Shown here: positions 53,726 through 64,000 of the stretch, piece after piece | How positions within the stretch are numbered: the first letter of the stretch is position 1 | Layout: every line of letters begins with the position of its first letter | Assembly: GCA_002104905.1 (NCBI GenBank) | Contig: MCFE01000102.1 | Location: 107,614 to 171,613 of the forward strand | DNA length: 64,000 bases | From: Basidiobolus meristosporus CBS 931.73 | Lineage: Eukaryota > Basidiobolomycota > Basidiobolomycetes > Basidiobolales > Basidiobolaceae | Direction of reading: 5' to 3' | Translations under genes and position numbers: made by a program | The notes under the pieces: model-generated | The model's database searches: none | What the model was told of the DNA's origin: nothing | The model's input: the letters and a program-made list of their open reading frames with translations, nothing else

Positions 53726-54000
53726 TTGGGAGGGGAGGAGGCAGAGTCACCATTATGGTGAAATATTTACTTATGCCAAGTAGTTACAAAAATCACTAAA
53801 GCTAAAAATAAAGAAGCCAGCAAAGGGCTTTATATCTCTTGAATGATTGGTCAAATTCAGGTTTTTGTTGTAGTTAAGAGAAAGTGTAATAAAACTCTTG
53901 AATGGTTTAACTGAACCTAAGGGACAACTAAGTGCAGAGTCTTAGAACTGTCATCAGAGTGGCAGAAGTACTAGCAGAGACTCCGGTCTAATAAGTAGTC
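53726..54000 (-). mobile_element. retroposon 3' tail T1 (oldest, degraded)
   Basis: Top strand starts TTGGGAGGGGAGGAGGC and then the shared tail hairpin TCACC-ATTAT-GGTGA, an AT-rich stretch and AAATAAAGAAGCCAG. This is the reverse complement of the family 3' end. The junction G-run is altered (CCTTGGG instead of TTAGGG), so this is probably an old copy. The body to about 54000 is not recognisable. Confidence 0.65.
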
Positions 54001-54210
54001 AGAGTCTTGGAGATATTGGAGTGATTGGGAGAACAAGTAGATTATGCAGTTTCACTTCATGATTTATTGAATGTCAAAAGGAGTACATTATACTTTTACA
54101 TGATCTTGGCATAAGCGAATACATAAAATAGATTCAGGAAGGTCCCAAGAATATGTGTGCAAAGTTTGGGGCTGGTTGAACAACTTTGAGAATTTTCATA
54201 TTCTGGGTAC
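54001..54210 (-). repeat. truncated copia LTR ending at telomere repeats
   Basis: Minus-strand LTR from AGAGTCTTGGAGATATTGG to TTCTGGGTAC, matching the LTR at 61541-61750. It stops abruptly at 54210, where TTAGGGTTAGGG begins. Confidence 0.8.
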
Positions 54211-54539
54211 TTAGGGTTAGGGGGAGGATAATCACCAAAGGGTGAAATCTTTATTTAAGCCATAAATAAAGAAGCCAGGTTGGAATATGAATACCTGCAA
54301 AGCAGAAAGCCTACAAGATACGCTTGGACTTTGCTGTTTCCCAAATATTCTCAATATCAAAGTCTAGAGGAGAATGTAGCAAGACTGCTTGTTCACTGTA
54401 GTATTTCTTGAGGAAGTTTGTCACTAGGAGGGAAGGAGAGTCTTTCAATAAGCTGATAAATCTTTTCAGGAGTTCTTTTTCCAGAGAGAATGGTACAAAG
54501 AGTGGAATGTCCAAATGCTGTCTGAATATATGCTCTGAG
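54211..54539 (-). mobile_element. LINE-like element T2, 3' part
   Basis: Begins with TTAGGGTTAGGG and GGAGG, then the tail hairpin TCACC-AAAG-GGTGA and AAATAAAGAAGCCAGG. Further in, a minus-strand frame (54514-54311) reads HLDIPLFVPFSLEKELLKR and ends TAKSKRIL. At 54539 it is split by copia-1 and resumes at 59223. Confidence 0.7.
54535..54539 (+). repeat. target-site duplication CTGAG (left)
   Basis: CTGAG precedes the 5' LTR and is repeated at 59223-59227 just after the 3' LTR. Confidence 0.9.
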
Positions 54540-54888
54540 TGTTGTAAAAATTAGTATTTCCACCTAAATATTCACCTAACTTAGTCACTTAGATCATCAC
54601 CTTCAAATCCTAGAGAATACTGACCAAATTCCTTGTTGGGATTTACTTAGAATATTTTCACCAAAATACCAGGTACACAGAACATGAAAATTCTCAAAGT
54701 TGTCCAAACAGCCCCAAACTTTGCACACATGTTCTTGGGACCTTCCTTAACCTATTCTACGTGTTTGTAATGCCAAGACCAGGTAAAAGTATAAATACCA
54801 CTTTTACATTCAATAAATCATTAAGTTAAAACCACATAATCTACTTGTTCTCCCAATCACTTCCAATATCTCCAAGACTCTTACAACA
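54540..54888 (+). repeat. copia-1 5' LTR
   Basis: Contains a TATA-like AAGTATAAATACC at about 54787 and an AATAAATC signal at about 54811, so it should hold promoter and polyadenylation functions. Confidence 0.92.
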
Positions 54889-54901
54889 GGTTATGAGCCC
54901 C
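54889..54901 (+). other. primer-binding site, half-tRNA(iMet) type
   Basis: GGTTATGAGCCCC starts directly after the LTR and is complementary to the anticodon arm of initiator tRNA-Met (GGGCUCAUAACC), not to a tRNA 3' end. Copia of Drosophila and yeast Ty5 are known to prime from such a tRNA fragment. The ATG inside it (54893) is also the first in-frame start of gag. Confidence 0.75.
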
Positions 54902-57900
54902 AAGCTGTCACTCTCTGCAATGTCTACTACTGCTATTACTGGAATTTTTCCCTCTGCTGAAAAGTTGGATGGCTCTAACTACCAAGTGTGGAAGGTGAAG
55001 ATGAAGATGCTGCTACAAGAAAGAGGCCTTTGGGATATTGTCATGGGAGAAGAATGCCCTCCTAAAAACGTGGGAGAGGAAGCCTTAAAGTACCAGAAGA
55101 AAGAACAAAGTGCCTTTAACTGCATTTGCCTTAATGTCAAGGACAAATTGCTAATTCAATGCTCAAGAGCAAAAACAGCAAAGAATGCCTGGAAGGCATT
55201 AGAAGACACCTACCAGTCATGTTCAGCTGCCAAGAAAATGTATCTGAGAAGAAAATTCTTTACTACAAAGATGCTGCCAGGAGAAGAAATGAAAAATCTA
55301 ATTAACAGAATTACCCTGCTGGTAGATGAGATGGAATCTGTGGGCATACCAACTACTGATGAGGATGTGATAGTTACCATCCTGAATAGCCTGACAGACA
55401 AGTTTCAGGGCCTTGTATCAGCCCTAGAGTCCAGAACTGAAGATTTGACCTTAAATTACGTATATGGAAGGCTCCTGGATGAAGAATTAAGAAAATCAAG
55501 CACCAATAAGAAGGAAGAAGAAAATGCTTTAATAAGCAATGATAACCAACAAAGGAGGTACCCAAGACCCTACAAAGGCAACAGCAACCTATTTTGCAAC
55601 TACTGCAAAAGGAAAGGACACACATCAGACCGGTGTTTCAAAAAGAGAGATTATCAGCAAAAGAAGCCTGAATATGGAAATGCTGCAACAACTGAAGATA
55701 GACTATTCATATCTGCACTAAATATGACCACAAACAAGGATTCTCAGACGTGGTATATTGACTCTGGAGCTTCTCAACACTTTACACACCAAAAAGAACT
55801 TTTTACCCAATATCAAGAAATTCCAATTAAGAAGGTTTTCATGGGTGACGATAGAACACTTGATGCAGTGGGAGAAGGAACTATCCAAGTAAACCTTAGA
55901 AGCAGTGAAGGAAGCCATACACTGACCTTTAAAAAAGTACTCTATGTACCAGAAATAGCCAAGAACCTACTCTCTGTAAGCAAGGCCACAGCAGAAGGAC
56001 TCAGTTTTAGTTTTGACAATTCTGGATGCAGGATCACTGATCAAAATGGTGCCCATATTGCTTTGGGCATCAGAGATCAGAATCTATACAAGTTGACTTA
56101 TATTCCATCATATCTGGAAGCTGATATAAGTAACTTAAATGAAGAAACACCAATGCTTTGGCACAGGAGATTTGGACACATCAATTTTGATTATTTGCGT
56201 AAAATGATCAAAGATCAGCTAATTTCTGGAGTGAAAATTGATCCCCCAGCTAATTTGGAGCACTGTGAAGCCTGCATATATGGGAAACAAGCCAGACAAC
56301 CGTTCAAGAGCTCTGGGTTAATCAAAACTAAGAAAAAATTAGATCTAATTCACTCAGATCTGTGTGGACCTATGCAAAATTTATCCTTAGGCGGGATGAA
56401 GTATTTAATCACTTTTATTGATGATTATACAAGATACACATGGGTCTACTTCATGGAGAGAAAGGAAGAAGCTCTGTCTAAGCTCAGGGAGTTTAAAGCC
56501 ATGGTGGAGAGAGAAACTGTTGAAAAAATCAAGAAAATACGCTCTGACAATGGTGGAGAATATACCTCAAAACTCTTCATCCACTTCTGCAAAATTCATG
56601 GGATAAAGCAAGAGACTACTGTACCATACTCCCCACTGCAAAATGGAGTAGCAGAACAAGCTAACAGATCAATAATTGATATGGCAAGATCTATGATCCA
56701 TGATCAAAAATTATCCTATGATTTTTGGGTGGAATCAGTTGCCACTGCTGTATATCTTAAAAATAGGAGTTATAACAGAATACTTCATGATTCTACTCCA
56801 TTTGAAGCATGGTATGGATATAGACCAAGTGCAGAACATCTAAGAATATTTGGGTGTACAGCATATGCCAAAAGACTGGCCGGAAATCAGTCATAATTTG
56901 AGCCAAAAAGTTTAAAATGCATATTTTTGGGCTACTGCAATGAGAGTAAGGCATACAGACTCTACAATACCGAAGCAAAGAAGCTGATCAAGTCCAGGGA
57001 TGTGTTGTTTGATGAAAATTCAAAATTTTCACAAAAAATGACATCAGATGATGACAAAAATTTGATTTCAAGTCCACCAATTGTCAGGATTGAATCAGAG
57101 CAAAACAATGAAAATTTTTTCACTCCAGAGGACTCTACAACCGTGGTTCAGCCAGAATCAGTGCCCAGGAATATCCCAGAAGTGATCATTCCAGTATCAA
57201 ATGCCTGGAGATCAAATCGGACAAGAAATAGCCCAAATTACTATATTAATGAGGGTACAAACTTAGCCTATGCCTATTCAGTCCATATTGATGAACCCCA
57301 GACTGTAAAAGAGGCCCTAAATAGCCCTCAGACAAAGTTTTGGAGATCTGCAATGACTGAGGAATATCAGGCCCTGATGGAAAATCAAACTTGGGACTTT
57401 GTCAAATTACCAACCAACCAAAAATCAATTGAATGCAGATGGGTCTTCAAGACAAAATACAAGGCTGATGGTACAATTGAAAGATACAAAGCAAGACTTG
57501 TAGCCAAAGGATACTCTCAAACAAAAGGACTTGACTATACTGAGACCTTTGCACCGGTAGCCAAGTTTAATTCCATCAGATTAATATTGGCTATTGCAGC
57601 CAAATATAAGTTTTTTATTCATCAAATGGATGTAAAAACTGCATTTTTGAATGGAGAACTTGATGAGGACATGTATATGGACCAGCCTGATGGGTTTGTT
57701 GACCAAGATAACCCCCATTTGGTCTGCAAGCTTAAAAAGTGACTATATGGTCTCAAACAATCACCGAGAGCCTGGAATTGCAAGATAGATTCTTATTTGG
57801 AATCTTTGAGTTTCAAAAGGAGTAATGCTGACTATAGTATATACTATAAGCCAGATAGAGCAAATCCAGTTCTATTAGCTCTATATGTGGATGATCTTAT

Positions 57901-58862
57901 TATAGCCGCCAATAACCTAGAAACATTGGAAGAAACTAAATCTAGCCTATCTAAGGAGTTCAAGATGTCTGATTTAGGAGAACTTAGTTACTACTTAGGG
58001 ATTAAGTTCTCCATAGACAGAAGTACCCAGACTATCACCCTAAGCCAATCCAAGTATATTCAAGATATACTAAAGAAGTACCAAATGGAAGACTGTAAAC
58101 CAGCAGCTATCCCAATGGAGACAAACCTTAACTTGGTCAAAACTCAACAAATCAAGAGAGCTTGGTGCCATCTGAAAGCCCTGACTTTCCTTATCAATCT
58201 ATGGTCGGCAGTCTGATGTATATCATGCTTGGAACACGTCCAGATATCTCATATTCAGTGGGAGTTGTCAGCCAACATAATCAGAATTATGGATCTGATC
58301 ATATTGCAGCAGTTAAGCGGATTTTTAGATACCTAAAAGGAACTGCTGATATCTGCTTAAGATACACTTATAAGGATTCAGAACAGGATCTTGTGGGATA
58401 CTCTGATGCTGATTGGGGACAAAATTTGGAAGACAGAAGATCCACCACAGGATACACCTTTCTTTACTGTAAAGGAGCAATTTCATGGAATTCAAGAAAG
58501 CAACCAACCGTAGCACTTTCTACTACAGAGGCAGAGTATATGGCAGCCTGTGAAGCTACAAAAGAAGCAATGTGTTTAAGAAAGCTCTTTGCAGATTTAG
58601 GCCTATGTCAAAAACGCCTATTACTTTATTTCAAGATAATCAAGGATGTATACAATTAGGTAGAAATCCAACTTTTCATGCTAGAGCCAAGCACATAGAT
58701 ATTAGACATCATTTCATACATGAAGCTATAGAGAATAACTTAGTTAGCTTAGTTTACTGTTGTACAGATGAAATGATTGCAGACATATTTACCAAACCAT
58801 TAGCTAGAGACAAGTTTGAATATCTTAGGTCAAAATTAGGACTAGTCAGTATGAACATTTAG
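54893..58862 (+). pseudogene. copia-1 gag-pol, two stops and frameshifts
   Basis: Gag (LDGSNYQVWKVKMKMLLQ), zinc knuckle CNYCKRKGHTSDRC, protease WYIDSGASQHFTH, integrase entry LWHRRFGHINFDYL and HSDLCGPM, RT FKTKYKADG and LYVDDLIIAANN, RNase H YSDADWGQNLEDRRSTTGY, ending IADIFTKPLARDKFEY. Breaks: TAA at 56894-56896, TGA at 57740-57742 (the second copy has TCA), a one-base deletion near 58147 (CAACAAATC against CAACCAAATC), and a frame change near 58608 shared with copia-2. The element is therefore non-autonomous. Confidence 0.9.
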
Positions 58863-58873
58863 CTGAGTGGGAG

Positions 58874-59222
58874 TGTTGTAAAAATTTGTATTTCCACCTA
58901 AATATTCACCTAACTTAGTCACTTAGATCATCACCTTCAAATCCTAGAGAATACTGACCAAATTCCTTGTCGGGATTTACTTAGAATATTTTCACCAAAA
59001 TACCAGGTACCCAGAACATGAAAATTCTCAAAGTTGTCCAAACAGCCCCAAACTTTGCACACATGTTCTTGGGACCTTCCTTAACCTATTCTACGTGTTT
59101 GTAATGCCAAGACCAGGTAAAAGTATAAATACCACTTTTACATTCAATAAATCATTAAGTGAAAACCACATAATCTACTTGTTCTCCCAATCACTTCCAA
59201 TATCTCCAAGACTCTTACAACA
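58874..59222 (+). repeat. copia-1 3' LTR
   Basis: Preceded by the purine tract GAGTGGGAG; ends CTTACAACA and is followed by the CTGAG duplication. Confidence 0.92.
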
Positions 59223-59592
59223 CTGAGAGCTCCCAATCAAGCATATATTTGACTTCTTCTGTAAAATCTTTTAAAATGTCCATGTTAAGAATAACTTCCA
59301 GGAGATCCCTGGCAATGTACTAAATGCTAATAATCTTAGATATATGAATACCTAGGTCCTTAAAATAGTTTCTTTGCTCTGAAACTGGGAGATAACCAGC
59401 ATTTCTAAATTAGCAAACAGCCCAGTTAGCAGCAGGAGGAGTATCAGGGCTGACAGGGAATCTTCTTCTGGCTTTAGACTGCACTGACTTAGGAGACTGT
59501 CTTGATGGAAGTACAGCTGACTTTGGATGAGGTTGAAGTGCTTGGGAGTAGGTTTAAGTTGGAGTAGCAGGAGCTGCTGGTGGCTGACAGTT
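59223..59592 (-). mobile_element. LINE-like element T2, interrupted 5' part
   Basis: Removing copia-1 and one CTGAG joins this segment to 54539 with an open minus-strand frame of at least 100 codons. The words EEVKYMLDWELSEHIF lead into RQHLDIPLFVPF. The domain is not recognised. It is truncated on the telomere side at 59592, where the next element's TTAGGGGG begins. Confidence 0.6.
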
Positions 59593-60120
59593 TTAGGGGG
59601 GAGGAAAGTCACCAAGTGGTGAAATCTTTGTTTACTTATGACAAGTATCTAAAGAAGCCAAGTTAATCTGAAGTAATTCCTAGAAAGCTAGGTCTGAGAG
59701 ATATCTTCCTGGTAAGCCAGGTCTGAGAGTTGAGAAGCTGAGTGGCACTATATTTCCTAGTTAGCTAGGTCTGAGAGAGGTTTCCTGGAAAGCCAGGCAT
59801 GAGAAGTGAGAATCTGAATATATCTGAGCTAAGTTATACTGGCTTGCGGTAGCTGAATTGTGGCCAGAATGGCCAGTAGACTGGGGGAGCTGAGATGAGT
59901 TTCTGGGCAAACACTGGCCAAATTTACTAGGCAAATCAGGCCAATTAGCATTTTAAGGATTTCAGCCAATCAGAGCCTTTACTTTGCCCAATGGTTGATC
60001 AAGCCATCTCCCAATGAGCACACATCAATTTATTGATCAAATTTTGTTGGATCCAGGATTTGAACCCACAACCATGAGTATGGAAGGGTTAGGGATAACC
60101 ACAAGGCTAAGCGTTCTTGG
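59593..60120 (-). mobile_element. SINE copy A: tRNA-like head, LINE-type tail
   Basis: Read on the minus strand it starts at about 60120. It shows an A-box-like TAGCCTTGTGGTTA and, 43 bases later, a B-box-like GGTTCAAATCC, as in tRNA-derived pol III promoters. The body of about 400 bp carries four short hairpins. The end is CTTCTTTAGATACTTG, AAATAAAGATTTCACC, ACTTGGTGAC and TCCTCCCCCCTAA, the same tail as the LINE. No protein is encoded. Confidence 0.7.
59676..59796 (-). repeat. four hairpin motifs in the SINE body
   Basis: TTCCTAGAAAGCTAGG, TTCCTGGTAAGCCAGG, TTCCTAGTTAGCTAGG and TTCCTGGAAAGCCAGG. Each is an inverted repeat followed by a T/GAGAG word. The alternation TAG/CTA and TGG/CCA keeps pairing, i.e. 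compensatory change. The same four occur in copy B at 60200-60330. Confidence 0.75.
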
Positions 60121-60567
60121 TTAGGGGGGAGGAAAGTCACCAAGTGGTGAAATCTTTATTTACTTATGACAAGTATCTAAAGAAGCCAAGTTAATCTGAA
60201 GTAATTCCTAGAAAGCTAGGTCTGAGAGATATCTTCCTGGTAAGCCAGGTCTAAGAGTTGAGAAGCTGAGTGGCACTATATTTCCTAGTTAGCTAGGTCT
60301 GAGAGAGGTTTCCTGGAAAGCCAGGCCTGAGAAGTGAGAATCTTAATATATCTGAGCTAAGTTATACTGGTTTGCGGTAGCTGGATTGTGGCCGAAAAGG
60401 CCAGTAGACTGGGGGAACTGCGATGAATTTCTGGGCGATCACTGGCCAAATTTACTAGGCAAATCTGGTCATTAGCATTTCAAGGATTTCAGCCAATGAG
60501 AGCCTTTACTTTGCCCAATGGTTGATCAAGCCATCTCCCAATGAGCACACATCAATTTATTAATCAC
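60121..60567 (-). mobile_element. SINE copy B, head missing
   Basis: About 95% alike copy A over its length, starting with TTAGGGGGGAGG and the same hairpin tail. It ends at ATTAATCAC before the tRNA-like head would begin, so it is 5'-truncated, as expected for incomplete reverse transcription. Confidence 0.75.
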
Positions 60568-61540
60568 TTAGGGGGGGGGGAGACAGTCACCAACAGGTGA
60601 AATCTTTATTTCAGTAGAAACAAAGAAGCCAGCGCTACTGTTGTAGCTTTGATACAAGAGTGTGTAGCTGAGGGGAATTTGTAGGTAAGTTAATAAGAAG
60701 TGATGATAGTTCTTCAGTGCTCAAGACACTGTTCAGTGGGAAGGGGGGTAGCAAGAGAGGTAAGAATGACTTGTGAACAACATTAATGAGGGGAATGTGA
60801 TAAGGATTGATATTCATCATAAAGGGAGTGTGCTGCTGCAGATATTGCTGCCAAAGGTCTGTCAAGTACTTCAGGTAGGCCAGCTTGGGTTTTTCTGACT
60901 GCAGAATAAATTGAGCAAACTTCTTGACTTCAGGATCTCCAAGTATAGTTCTCCAGCAGGAGTCAGGTGTTGTGTGATGTGTTCTGTTCCAGGCCTTAAT
61001 CAGTGGGTTGTTGCAGTTGTGAAGTCTGAGGTATAATCTGGTTCTAAGGTAGAGAAGTCTGATCTTATAGGGCATAAACCCAAAAGCACCAAGAATAGCA
61101 TGTCAGTAGGGGCATTCAGGCAAATGAGGCACCAAGGAGGTAATGCACCATACTGCAAACTTGTCAAGCTTAGTGCAGTCTCTAGAAGTAAGAGAGAGAA
61201 GTGGTAAGCCAAATTCCAGGACAGGGAAGACAAACTGCTTGAGTAGAAGGAGGCAGCTGGGAGCTGAAGTTGTAGGAGGAGTAACAGCCAGTAGCTTGTG
61301 GAATGCCTGTCTTGCAAGGATAATTCTCTTCTTCAGGTGTGCTCCGGAGTCTAGTCCAGTAGGAAGGAAAGGAAAGCCAAGATATGTAGCAGAAACCTGA
61401 CCAGGTAGAGTGGAGTTCTCCAAGCTGATGGGAGAGCCCAAAGGTACTGTCTTTGCAATGGAAAGCTGGATATTATTCTTCTGCAGATACTGGTGGATGG
61501 TCTGGGAGTCTTGTTGCTAATTGGAGGAGGATATTCTGAT
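60568..61540 (-). mobile_element. LINE T5: 5'-truncated non-LTR retrotransposon with RT C-terminus
   Basis: Top strand begins TTAGGGGGGGGGG and the tail hairpin TCACC-AACA-GGTGA. The minus-strand frame 61441-60635 reads VSATYLGFPFLPTGLD (thumb region after the RT active site), VFPVLEFGLPLLSL and TSRDCTKLDKFAVWC, then LRLHNCNNPLIKAWNR, ending SKLQQ just upstream of the tail. A TGA at 61103-61105 interrupts it. The catalytic RT motifs and 5' part are absent: copia-2 is inserted at 61541. Confidence 0.8.
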
Positions 61541-61890
61541 TGTTGTAAGAGTCTTGGAGATATTGGAAGTGATTTGGGAGAACAAGTAGATTATGTGGTT
61601 TTCACTTAATGATTTATTGAATGTAAAAGTGGTATTTATACTTTTACCTGGTCTTGGCATTACAAACACGTAGAATAGGTTAAGGAAGGTCCCAAGAACA
61701 TGTGTACAAGTTTGGGGCTGTTTGGACAACTTTGAGAATTTTCATGTTCTAGGTACCTGGTATTTTGGTGAAAATATTCTAAGTAAATCCCAACAAGGAA
61801 TTTGGTCAGTATTCTCTAGGATTTGAAGGTGATGATCTAAGTGACTAAGTTAGGTGAATATTTAGGTGGAAAATACAAATTTTTACAACA
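61541..61890 (-). repeat. copia-2 3' LTR
   Basis: Same family as the copia-1 LTRs, with a few changes; bounded by TGTTG...CAACA and preceded (in element sense) by the purine tract GAGTGGGAG. Confidence 0.9.
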
Positions 61891-61901
61891 CTCCCACTCA
61901 G

Positions 61902-63575
61902 CTAAATGTTCATACTGACTAGTCCTAATTTTGACCTAAGATATTCAAACTTGTCTCTAGCTAATGGTTTGGTAAATATGTCTGCAATCATATCATCTGT
62001 AGGACAGTATACTAAGCTAACTAAGTTATTCTCTATAGCTTCACGTATGAAATGATGTCTAATATCTATGTGCTTGGTTCTAGCATGAAAAGTTGGATTT
62101 CTACCTAATTGTATACATCCTTGATTATCTTGAAATAAAGTAATAGGCGTTTTTGACATAGGCCTAAATCTGCAAAGAGCTTTCTTAAACACATTGCTTC
62201 TTTTGTAGCTTCACAGGCTGCCATATACTCTGCCTCTGTAGTAGAAAATGCTACGGTTGGTTGCTTTCTTGAATTCCATGAAATTGCTCCTTTACAGTAA
62301 ACAAAGGTGTATCCTGTGGTGGATCTTCTGTCTTCCAAATTTTGTCCCCAATCAGCATCAGAGTATCCCACAAGATCCTGTTCTGAATCCTTATAAGTGT
62401 ATCTTAAGCAGATATCAGCAGTTCCTTTTAGGTATCTAAAAATCCGCTTAACTGCTGCAATATGATCAGATCCATAATTCTGATTATGTTGGCTGACAAC
62501 TCCCACTGAATATGAGATATCTGGACGTGTTCCAAGCATGATATACATCAGACTGCCGACCATAGATTGATAAGGAAAGTCAGGGCTTTCAGATGGCACC
62601 AAGCTCTCTTGATTTGGTTGAGTTTTGACCAAGTTAAGGTTAGTCTCCATTGGGGTAGCTGCCGGTTTACAGTCTTCCATTTTGTACTTCTTTAGTATAT
62701 CTTGAATATACTTGGATTGGCTCAGGGTAATAGTCTGGGTACTTCTGTCTATGGAGAACTTAATCCCTAAGTAGTAACTGAGTTCTCCTAGATCGGACAT
62801 CTTGAACTCCTCAGATAGGCTGGATTTAGTCTCTTCCAATGTTTCTAGGTTATTGGCGGCTATAATAAGATCATCCACATATAGAGCTAATAGAACTGGA
62901 TTTGCTCTATCTGGCTTATAGTATATACTATAGTCAGCATTACTCCTTTTGAAACTCAAAGATTCCAAATAAGAGTCTATCTTGCAATTCCAGGCTCTTG
63001 GTGATTGTTTGAGACCATATAGTGACTTTTTAAGCTTGCAGACCAAATGGGGGTTATCTTGGTCAACAAACCCATCAGGCTGGTCCATATACATGTCCTC
63101 ATCAAGTTCTCCATTCAAAAATGCAGTTTTTACATCCATTTGATGAATAAAAAACTTATATTTGGCTGCAATAGCCAATATTAATCTGATGGAATTAAAC
63201 TTGGCTACCGGTGCAAAGGTCTCAGTATAGTCAAGTCCTTTTGTTTGAGAGTATCCTTTGGCTACAAGTCTTGCTTTGTATCTTTCAATTGTACCATCAG
63301 CCTTGTATTTTGTCTTGAAGACCCATCTGCATCCAATTGATTTTTGGATGATTGGTAAATTGACTAAGTCCCATGTTTGATTTTCCATCAGGGCCTGATA
63401 TTCCTCAGTCATTGCAGATCTCCAAAACTTTGTCTGAGGGCTATTTAGGGCCTCTTTTACAGTCTGGGGTTCATCAATATGGACTGAATAGGCATAGGCT
63501 AAGTTTGTACCCTCATTAATATAGTAATTTGGGCTATTTCTTGTCCGATTTGATCTCCGGGCATTTGATACTGGA
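61902..63575 (-). pseudogene. copia-2 pol fragment (RT and RNase H)
   Basis: From 63575 to 62105 one frame is open through RT (FKTKYKADG, MDVKTAFLNGELDED, LYVDDLIIAANN) and RNase H. The C-terminus (62192-61902) continues in another frame after the run TCAAAAAC. Copia-1 has the same frame change. The sites of the other three copia-1 lesions are intact here. Confidence 0.88.
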
Positions 63576-63578
63576 GGG

Positions 63579-63779
63579 TTAGGGGAGGGAAAGTCACCAA
63601 GGTAGGTGAAATCTTTATTTGATTTCAGACAAGTCTAACTACAAATAAAGAAGCCAGGTAGGAATAGAAGATTCCCCAAGTAAATACTAAGTTGAATATG
63701 AATAAATCTAAGCTAAAGTTAAGGCAGTATCCCAGAGTACACTGGAGTTCAGGTTCATGGTGGAGTGAAGTAGATAAGC
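63579..63779 (-). mobile_element. youngest retroposon tail T6 inside the telomere
   Basis: TTAGGGGAGGG, hairpin TCACC-AAGGTA-GGTGA, AAATCTTTATTT and AAATAAAGAAGCCAGG, then about 110 bp of unrecognised body ending directly at the terminal TTAGGG array. It is a heavily 5'-truncated copy flanked on both sides by telomere-type repeats. Confidence 0.75.
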
Positions 63780-64000
63780 TTAGGGTTAGGGTAGGGTTAG
63801 GGTTAGGGTTAGGGTTAGGGTTAGGGTTAGGGTTAGGGTTAGGGTAGGGTTAGGGTTAGGGTTAGGGTTAGGGTTAGGGTTAGGGTTAGGGTTAGGGTTA
63901 GGGTTAGGGTTAGGGTTAGGGTTAGGGTTAGGGTTAGGGTTAGGGTTAGGGTTAGGGTTAGGGTTAGGGTTAGGGTTAGGGTTAGGGTTAGGGTTAGGGT
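63780..64000 (+). repeat. telomere, TTAGGG array
   Basis: About 36 TTAGGG units to the last base of the window. Two units are TAGGG (63792-63796 and 63845-63849), both near the inner side. Orientation is that of a right chromosome end. Confidence 0.98.

Follow-up and report, generated by a model that had tools for sequence, protein, structure and literature searches.

The stretch of DNA that we analyzed, called the window throughout, is 64 kb long and forms the end of contig C25 (171,613 bases) in the Basidiobolus meristosporus assembly (89 Mb, 1311 contigs). A transporter encoded in the window has its best database match in Basidiobolus meristosporus CBS 931.73, with 89% along its entire length. 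A pattern search of the 64-kb window found hairpins of the form TCACC..GGTGAAAT at 53747, 54232, 59609, 60137, 60587 and 63594. All six matches are on the + strand, with none on the opposite strand and none elsewhere in the window, in agreement with the original prediction of six tails on one strand. Five of the six tails come after TTAGG with extra G, and the exception, T1, has CCTTGGGAGGGG instead. The six had been taken for a single LINE/SINE family. Compared by body and hairpin loop with four chromosome ends elsewhere in the genome, they sort instead into four kinds: T2 belongs to family D, T3 and T4 to SINE B, T5 to LINE A and T6 to family C, to which T1 is distantly related. The features of the window end are as follows.

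53727..53993, - strand: T1, old tail and body, distant relative of family C (hairpin at 53747)
54001..54210, - strand: Copia LTR fragment adjoining T1, cut off at the start of T2 (88.7% to Copia LTR, 212 columns)
54211..54539, - strand: T2 inner part, family D, with two TTAGGG units, tail and the 3' portion of the ORF1 relative (91.3% identity with D of L042, 322 bases)
54540..59222, + strand: Copia element inside T2 (349-bp LTR matches at both ends)
59223..59592, - strand: T2 outer part, family D, stopping at the start of T3 (87.9% to D of L042, 372 bases)
59593..60122, - strand: T3, full-length SINE B, unit of about 528 bp, RNA 5' end AACCAAGAAC at 60122
60121..60566, - strand: T4, SINE B, 5'-truncated (95.5% to T3, 447 columns)
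60568..61540, - strand: T5, LINE A, 3' end of ORF2 and tail, broken by the second Copia (98.3% identity with A of L040, 966 bases)
61541..63575, - strand: second Copia element, truncated at T6 (98.2% identity with the first one, 2036 columns)
63579..63781, - strand: T6, family C, 5'-truncated, immediately adjoining the telomere (94.3% identity with C of L042, 212 columns)
63780..64000, + strand: terminal TTAGGG array, end of contig C25 (37.2 copies)

The likeness of T1 to C of L040 amounts to 86% identity and covers 53866-53993 only, about 130 bases. T2 is split by the first Copia element, with the duplicated site CTGAG at 54535-54539, the last five bases of the inner part, and at 59223-59227; stop codons interrupt the reading frame of this Copia (ORF ends at 56896 and 57742). 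Copia copies end exactly at the T2 and T6 junctions, and their remainder was not found further outward: the missing part of the second Copia is absent between its cut edge and the telomere. At the T6 boundary, AAGCTT is followed by AGGG. Copia is frequent within the arrays, and the telomere of L084 even sits on a Copia LTR. Just inside another chromosome-end array, L041:1-993 and 1387-2535 hold two related long ORFs without assigned function.

Four families with a shared 3' tail

Family A is a two-ORF LINE and family B a 528-bp SINE. Families C and D carry a relative of the A ORF1 directly before the tail; they are ORF1-only in the sense that no ORF2 lies between ORF1 and the tail, and longer D copies exist (C380). 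Identity across the ORF1 domain is 36% between A and C, 29% between A and D and 49% between C and D. Each family has its own hairpin loop: AACA in A, AAGT in B, AAGGTA or AAAGTA in C and AAAG in D. When a 941-base D query was searched, 38 of the 44 rows, one of which is the query itself, spanned its whole length at 92-100% identity.

LINE A encodes a reverse transcriptase of LINE type, with best matches to LINE-1 and R2, and an APE-type endonuclease whose full domain is kept. A model of an ORF2 homologue has a complete APE-type endonuclease fold, for which TRAS1 is the best endonuclease match, tied with R1 and APE1. The three sequences that extend to the putative metal-binding Glu of the endonuclease, a residue assigned by eye, have Asp there. 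ORF1 terminates in UGA-CUA, which is known as a leaky stop context; ORF2 follows in frame, with no Met close by, an arrangement kept at 13 of 13 loci (L043:1990 and 12 others). In a DNA search of the genome, the 40 scored copies of LINE A were 99-100% identical over 399 bases, which points to recent activity.

SINE B is short, lacks LINE genes and matches A, C and D at its 3' end over about 40-65 bases. It gives 86 matching rows genome-wide, where full-length copies are mostly 95-97% identical to the 528-bp copy of the window (lowest 93%), and a genome pattern search placed its exact 5' end at 208 places. An A-box-like motif at position 14 and a B-box-like motif at 57, 43 bases apart, have one mismatch each, a loose test that 32 of 2000 shuffles also pass, and ARAGORN at default settings found no tRNA in the element. 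The SINE head also contains CCCTAACCC, the telomere C-strand, at window positions 60083-60096, near the A box.

The RNA 3' end common to at least these four families consists of two hairpins followed by a C-run; an A-run is absent from the window tails. Folding is better than in shuffled sequences for five of six tail representatives (z -2.3 to -4.3) but not for the old T1 tail (z -0.9). In six hand-set variants, 93% of cells are paired in the first stem, whose closing pair is seen as A-U, C-G, G-C and U-A, and the second stem is invariant. The covariation score was reached by 2 of 500 shuffles, but 264 of 500 reached the count of pairs with both bases changed.

Terminal placement and telomeric junctions

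Genome-wide, the hairpin pattern has 1552 forward and 145 reverse matches, against 0 and 0 for the reversed control, and the AGTCACC tail pattern has 1654 matches, against 0 and 2. We counted orientation and distance at chromosome ends, as the original prediction had proposed, with contig ends as a stand-in. The listed places number 261 on 132 contigs of 60 kb or more, and in 260 of them the 5' side faces a contig end no more than 25 kb away, compared with about 18% expected at random. Interior copies in both orientations would have spoken against end targeting; the sole listed exception on these long contigs is a LINE A copy, C726:56546, which faces inward and lies some 13 kb from the right end of its contig. 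The count pooled 100 of 1697 hairpin matches, 40 of 40 LINE A copies, 63 of 63 tails with three or more units, 59 of 86 SINE B rows, 42 of 44 D rows and 100 of 208 SINE 5' ends, after 27 partial or tail-only SINE B rows and two short D rows had been dropped. Merging by 30-base bins gave 396 places, 135 of which are on contigs below 60 kb and were left out of the distance count. Some contig sizes were interpolated from 58 known ones, which decrease monotonically as the scaffold number, inferred from the order of contigs, rises; the widest bracket reaches 45 kb, for one contig. The first contig in this inferred order measures only 345 kb.

C424, C979 and C125 each carry the elements in opposite orientations at their two ends. 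On C424 (312,558 bases), which may be a complete small chromosome, the left end has a TTAGGG array and then a full-length SINE, and the right end has SINEs and then TTAGGG, about 200 bases from the end. A TTAGGG array was present at 12 of the 18 right contig ends checked and absent from six. TTAGGG 24-mers number 7428 forward versus 81 reverse, telomeres thus being almost confined to right contig ends, perhaps through an assembler habit, and the forward/reverse skew of the hairpin matches resembles this one. The genome also encodes a Telomerase_RBD domain, matched on C880 in two pieces (40.5 and 34.7 bits, cut-off 25) with one TAG inside the second stretch. Since this domain is present, the elements do not replace telomerase.

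TTAGGG lies within 9 bases of 1207 of the 1654 tail matches genome-wide. At least two units are found in 277 and at least three in 63, each extra unit being about 0.23 times as frequent. The retrieved DNA has 108 tails, with no unit in 11, one in 80, two in 15 and three in two; one of the 0-unit tails is a palindrome picked up from the opposite strand, which leaves 107 true tails on 30 contigs, 10 of them without any TTAGG. These 107 tails have 89 distinct flanks and 96 distinct flank-and-loop combinations. So many distinct flanks point to many separate events, although they fall short of proof.

At the other end of the SINE, 204 of the 208 5'-end matches have TTAGGG within 8 bases, with at least one site counted twice. 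Among the matches listed, all 12 without direct TTAGGG contact still begin GGTT; two other SINE 5' junctions in the retrieved DNA are GGGTT and GGTGGG. These counts indicate that most SINE copies finish in the telomere register GGTT, and full-length SINEs have TTAGGG on both sides. We also read 24 terminal boundaries on contigs picked for having tails, one of which (L084) lies in a Copia LTR, outside these families: six are whole SINE 5' ends, eight share 1-4 bases with the interrupted sequence, four share none, four have 1-2 added bases and two are unassigned. Internal junctions show a similar mix.

Relation to known telomeric retroposons

The Basidiobolus elements work like a telomere-directed LINE system and depart from TRAS/SART, MoTeR and HeT-A in tested features. 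MoTeR1 and MoTeR2 of Magnaporthe (Pyricularia) oryzae are described in a section of PMC7367193 as fungal telomeric non-LTR elements arranged head-to-tail with 5' ends outward, an autonomous element and a shorter partner with a common 3' end, on whose truncated copies telomeres are re-formed. The Basidiobolus arrays are likewise head-to-tail, with 5' ends toward the telomere and shorter partners that share the 3' end, and their terminal boundaries resemble the telomere healing described at truncated MoTeRs (PMC7367193). The same section (PMC7367193) describes the MoTeR1 endonuclease as restriction-like, places telomere-like repeats at one terminus of the element and reports tracts of half a unit to more than 20 in its arrays. 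The endonuclease here is APE-type and not restriction-like. Also unlike MoTeR as described there, nearly all tracts have 0-2 units, and the families include a SINE and short elements with ORF1.

TRAS and SART elements end in poly(A), which the window tails lack. A part of PMC4700185 describes those of Bombyx mori as two-ORF APE-type LINEs with a TTAGG-type target and an important 3' UTR. LINE A resembles them, as so described, in its two ORFs, its APE-type endonuclease and the tied TRAS1 fold match. SART and TRAS are described as inserting in opposite orientations, whereas one orientation is common to all families here. The long telomeric arrays on both sides are also missing: retrieved tails have at most three units inward.

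HeT-A, TART and TAHRE form one-orientation arrays at chromosome ends, where elements without reverse transcriptase stand beside a partner that bears one, and Drosophila is without telomerase. The Basidiobolus arrays likewise run one way at chromosome ends, and C and D, with an ORF1 relative directly before the tail, may be comparable partners of the reverse transcriptase-bearing A. The arrays differ from HeT-A and TART in their TTAGGG repeats and the Telomerase_RBD match in the genome. Endonuclease-deficient Penelope-like elements (Athena, Coprina) are telomere-associated and joined to telomeric repeats, also in fungi, and have a reverse transcriptase related to that of telomerase; in the present elements, the best matches of the reverse transcriptase are LINE-1 and R2, and an APE-type endonuclease is present.

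Proposed end priming and its alternatives

The elements had been predicted to be end-targeted retroposons that extend or cap the chromosome. End targeting is strongly supported; capping by the elements themselves is not. From these sequence patterns, we consider it probable that the elements form a chromosome-end retroposon system, in which new copies are primed at eroded or broken ends that telomerase afterwards caps again. LINE A would make the ORF1 protein and an APE-endonuclease/reverse transcriptase recognizing the two-hairpin tail of A, B, C and D, so that, we infer, the other families would use the enzyme of A. Where a chromosome is eroded or broken, its G-rich 3' end would pair with the terminal C-run of the RNA and serve as the starting point of reverse transcription. 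Because copying would begin from the RNA 3' end on a free G-rich 3' end, the RNA 3' end would lie inward and the 5' end outward, which would explain the single orientation. In the order of events that we infer, copying would often stop early, telomerase would then extend the new end with TTAGGG, and about one such unit would be left after subsequent erosion or breakage; repeated cycles would build head-to-tail arrays.

The short tracts, together with the missing outer halves of the cut Copia elements, favor attachment to ends that were already eroded or broken. Several observations count against end priming: the full endonuclease domain is kept, which such priming would not need; 10 of the 107 tails have no TTAGG; C726:56546 faces inward; and six of the 18 right ends have no telomere.

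It is possible, if rather doubtful, that insertion is instead TRAS/SART- or MoTeR-like, the endonuclease nicking a TTAGGG array for target-primed insertion and long tracts later being lost by breakage to leave 0-3 units. The intact endonuclease fold, with its tied TRAS1 match, and the break-prone behavior reported in part of PMC7367193 for MoTeR interstitial tracts above three units make this a live rival, and the short tracts observed here could be survivors of longer, break-prone ones. TTAGGG on both sides of full-length SINEs would also fit. However, no retrieved tail stands beside more than three TTAGG units, while terminal arrays reach 30 or more, and uniform insertion in a 30-unit array would produce three or fewer inward units only about 13% of the time. 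Some junctions, moreover, lie directly on cut Copia or other sequence, and Asp replaces the putative metal-binding Glu.

Recombination between ends could spread copies, as in the loop-out copying described for MoTeR arrays in a portion of PMC7367193, and T6 and the C22 end share the breakpoint AAGCTT in C. That the arrays owe their spread mostly to recombination or break-induced copying from one end to another, with retrotransposition old and not end-directed, is nevertheless improbable in view of the 89 distinct flanks, the 96 flank-and-loop combinations, the many truncation points, the four families in one orientation and the fixed SINE 5' end at 208 places, and it leaves the G-rich junctions unexplained. 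An assembly effect, by which repeats break contigs and copies only seem terminal, would suit the six right ends without TTAGGG but is exceedingly unlikely, as TTAGGG terminates the other 12, C424 runs from telomere to SINE on its left and from SINEs to TTAGGG near its right end, and a break artefact would leave orientation unfixed.

Priming on eroded ends leads to a broader proposal, which we make only tentatively: a mixed telomerase/retroposon end in an early-diverging fungus, where a LINE may drive its own copies, its ORF1-bearing partners and a SINE onto eroded ends through pairing of the C-run with the G-strand. The GGTT end of the SINE would be extendable by telomerase, and the element would be the first telomere-specialized SINE, part of a telomerase-compatible backup for lengthening. 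A limited search of the open-access literature found no precedent for a telomere-directed SINE or a Basidiobolus telomeric retroposon. What appears to be new, for an early-diverging fungus that has telomerase, is a telomere-directed SINE together with short partners carrying ORF1, next to an APE-type LINE.

Known telomere-directed LINEs either replace a lost telomerase, as in Drosophila, or are thought to cut telomeric arrays, as with TRAS/SART and MoTeR. Here, tail matches exceed 1600 in a fungus with telomerase, and the places listed on long contigs are, with one exception, terminal and outward-facing. The system would make it possible to test how a single DNA end accommodates both retroposons and telomerase, whether the attrition of telomeres is in itself the insertion signal, and how a HeT-A-like division of labor arises while telomerase persists.
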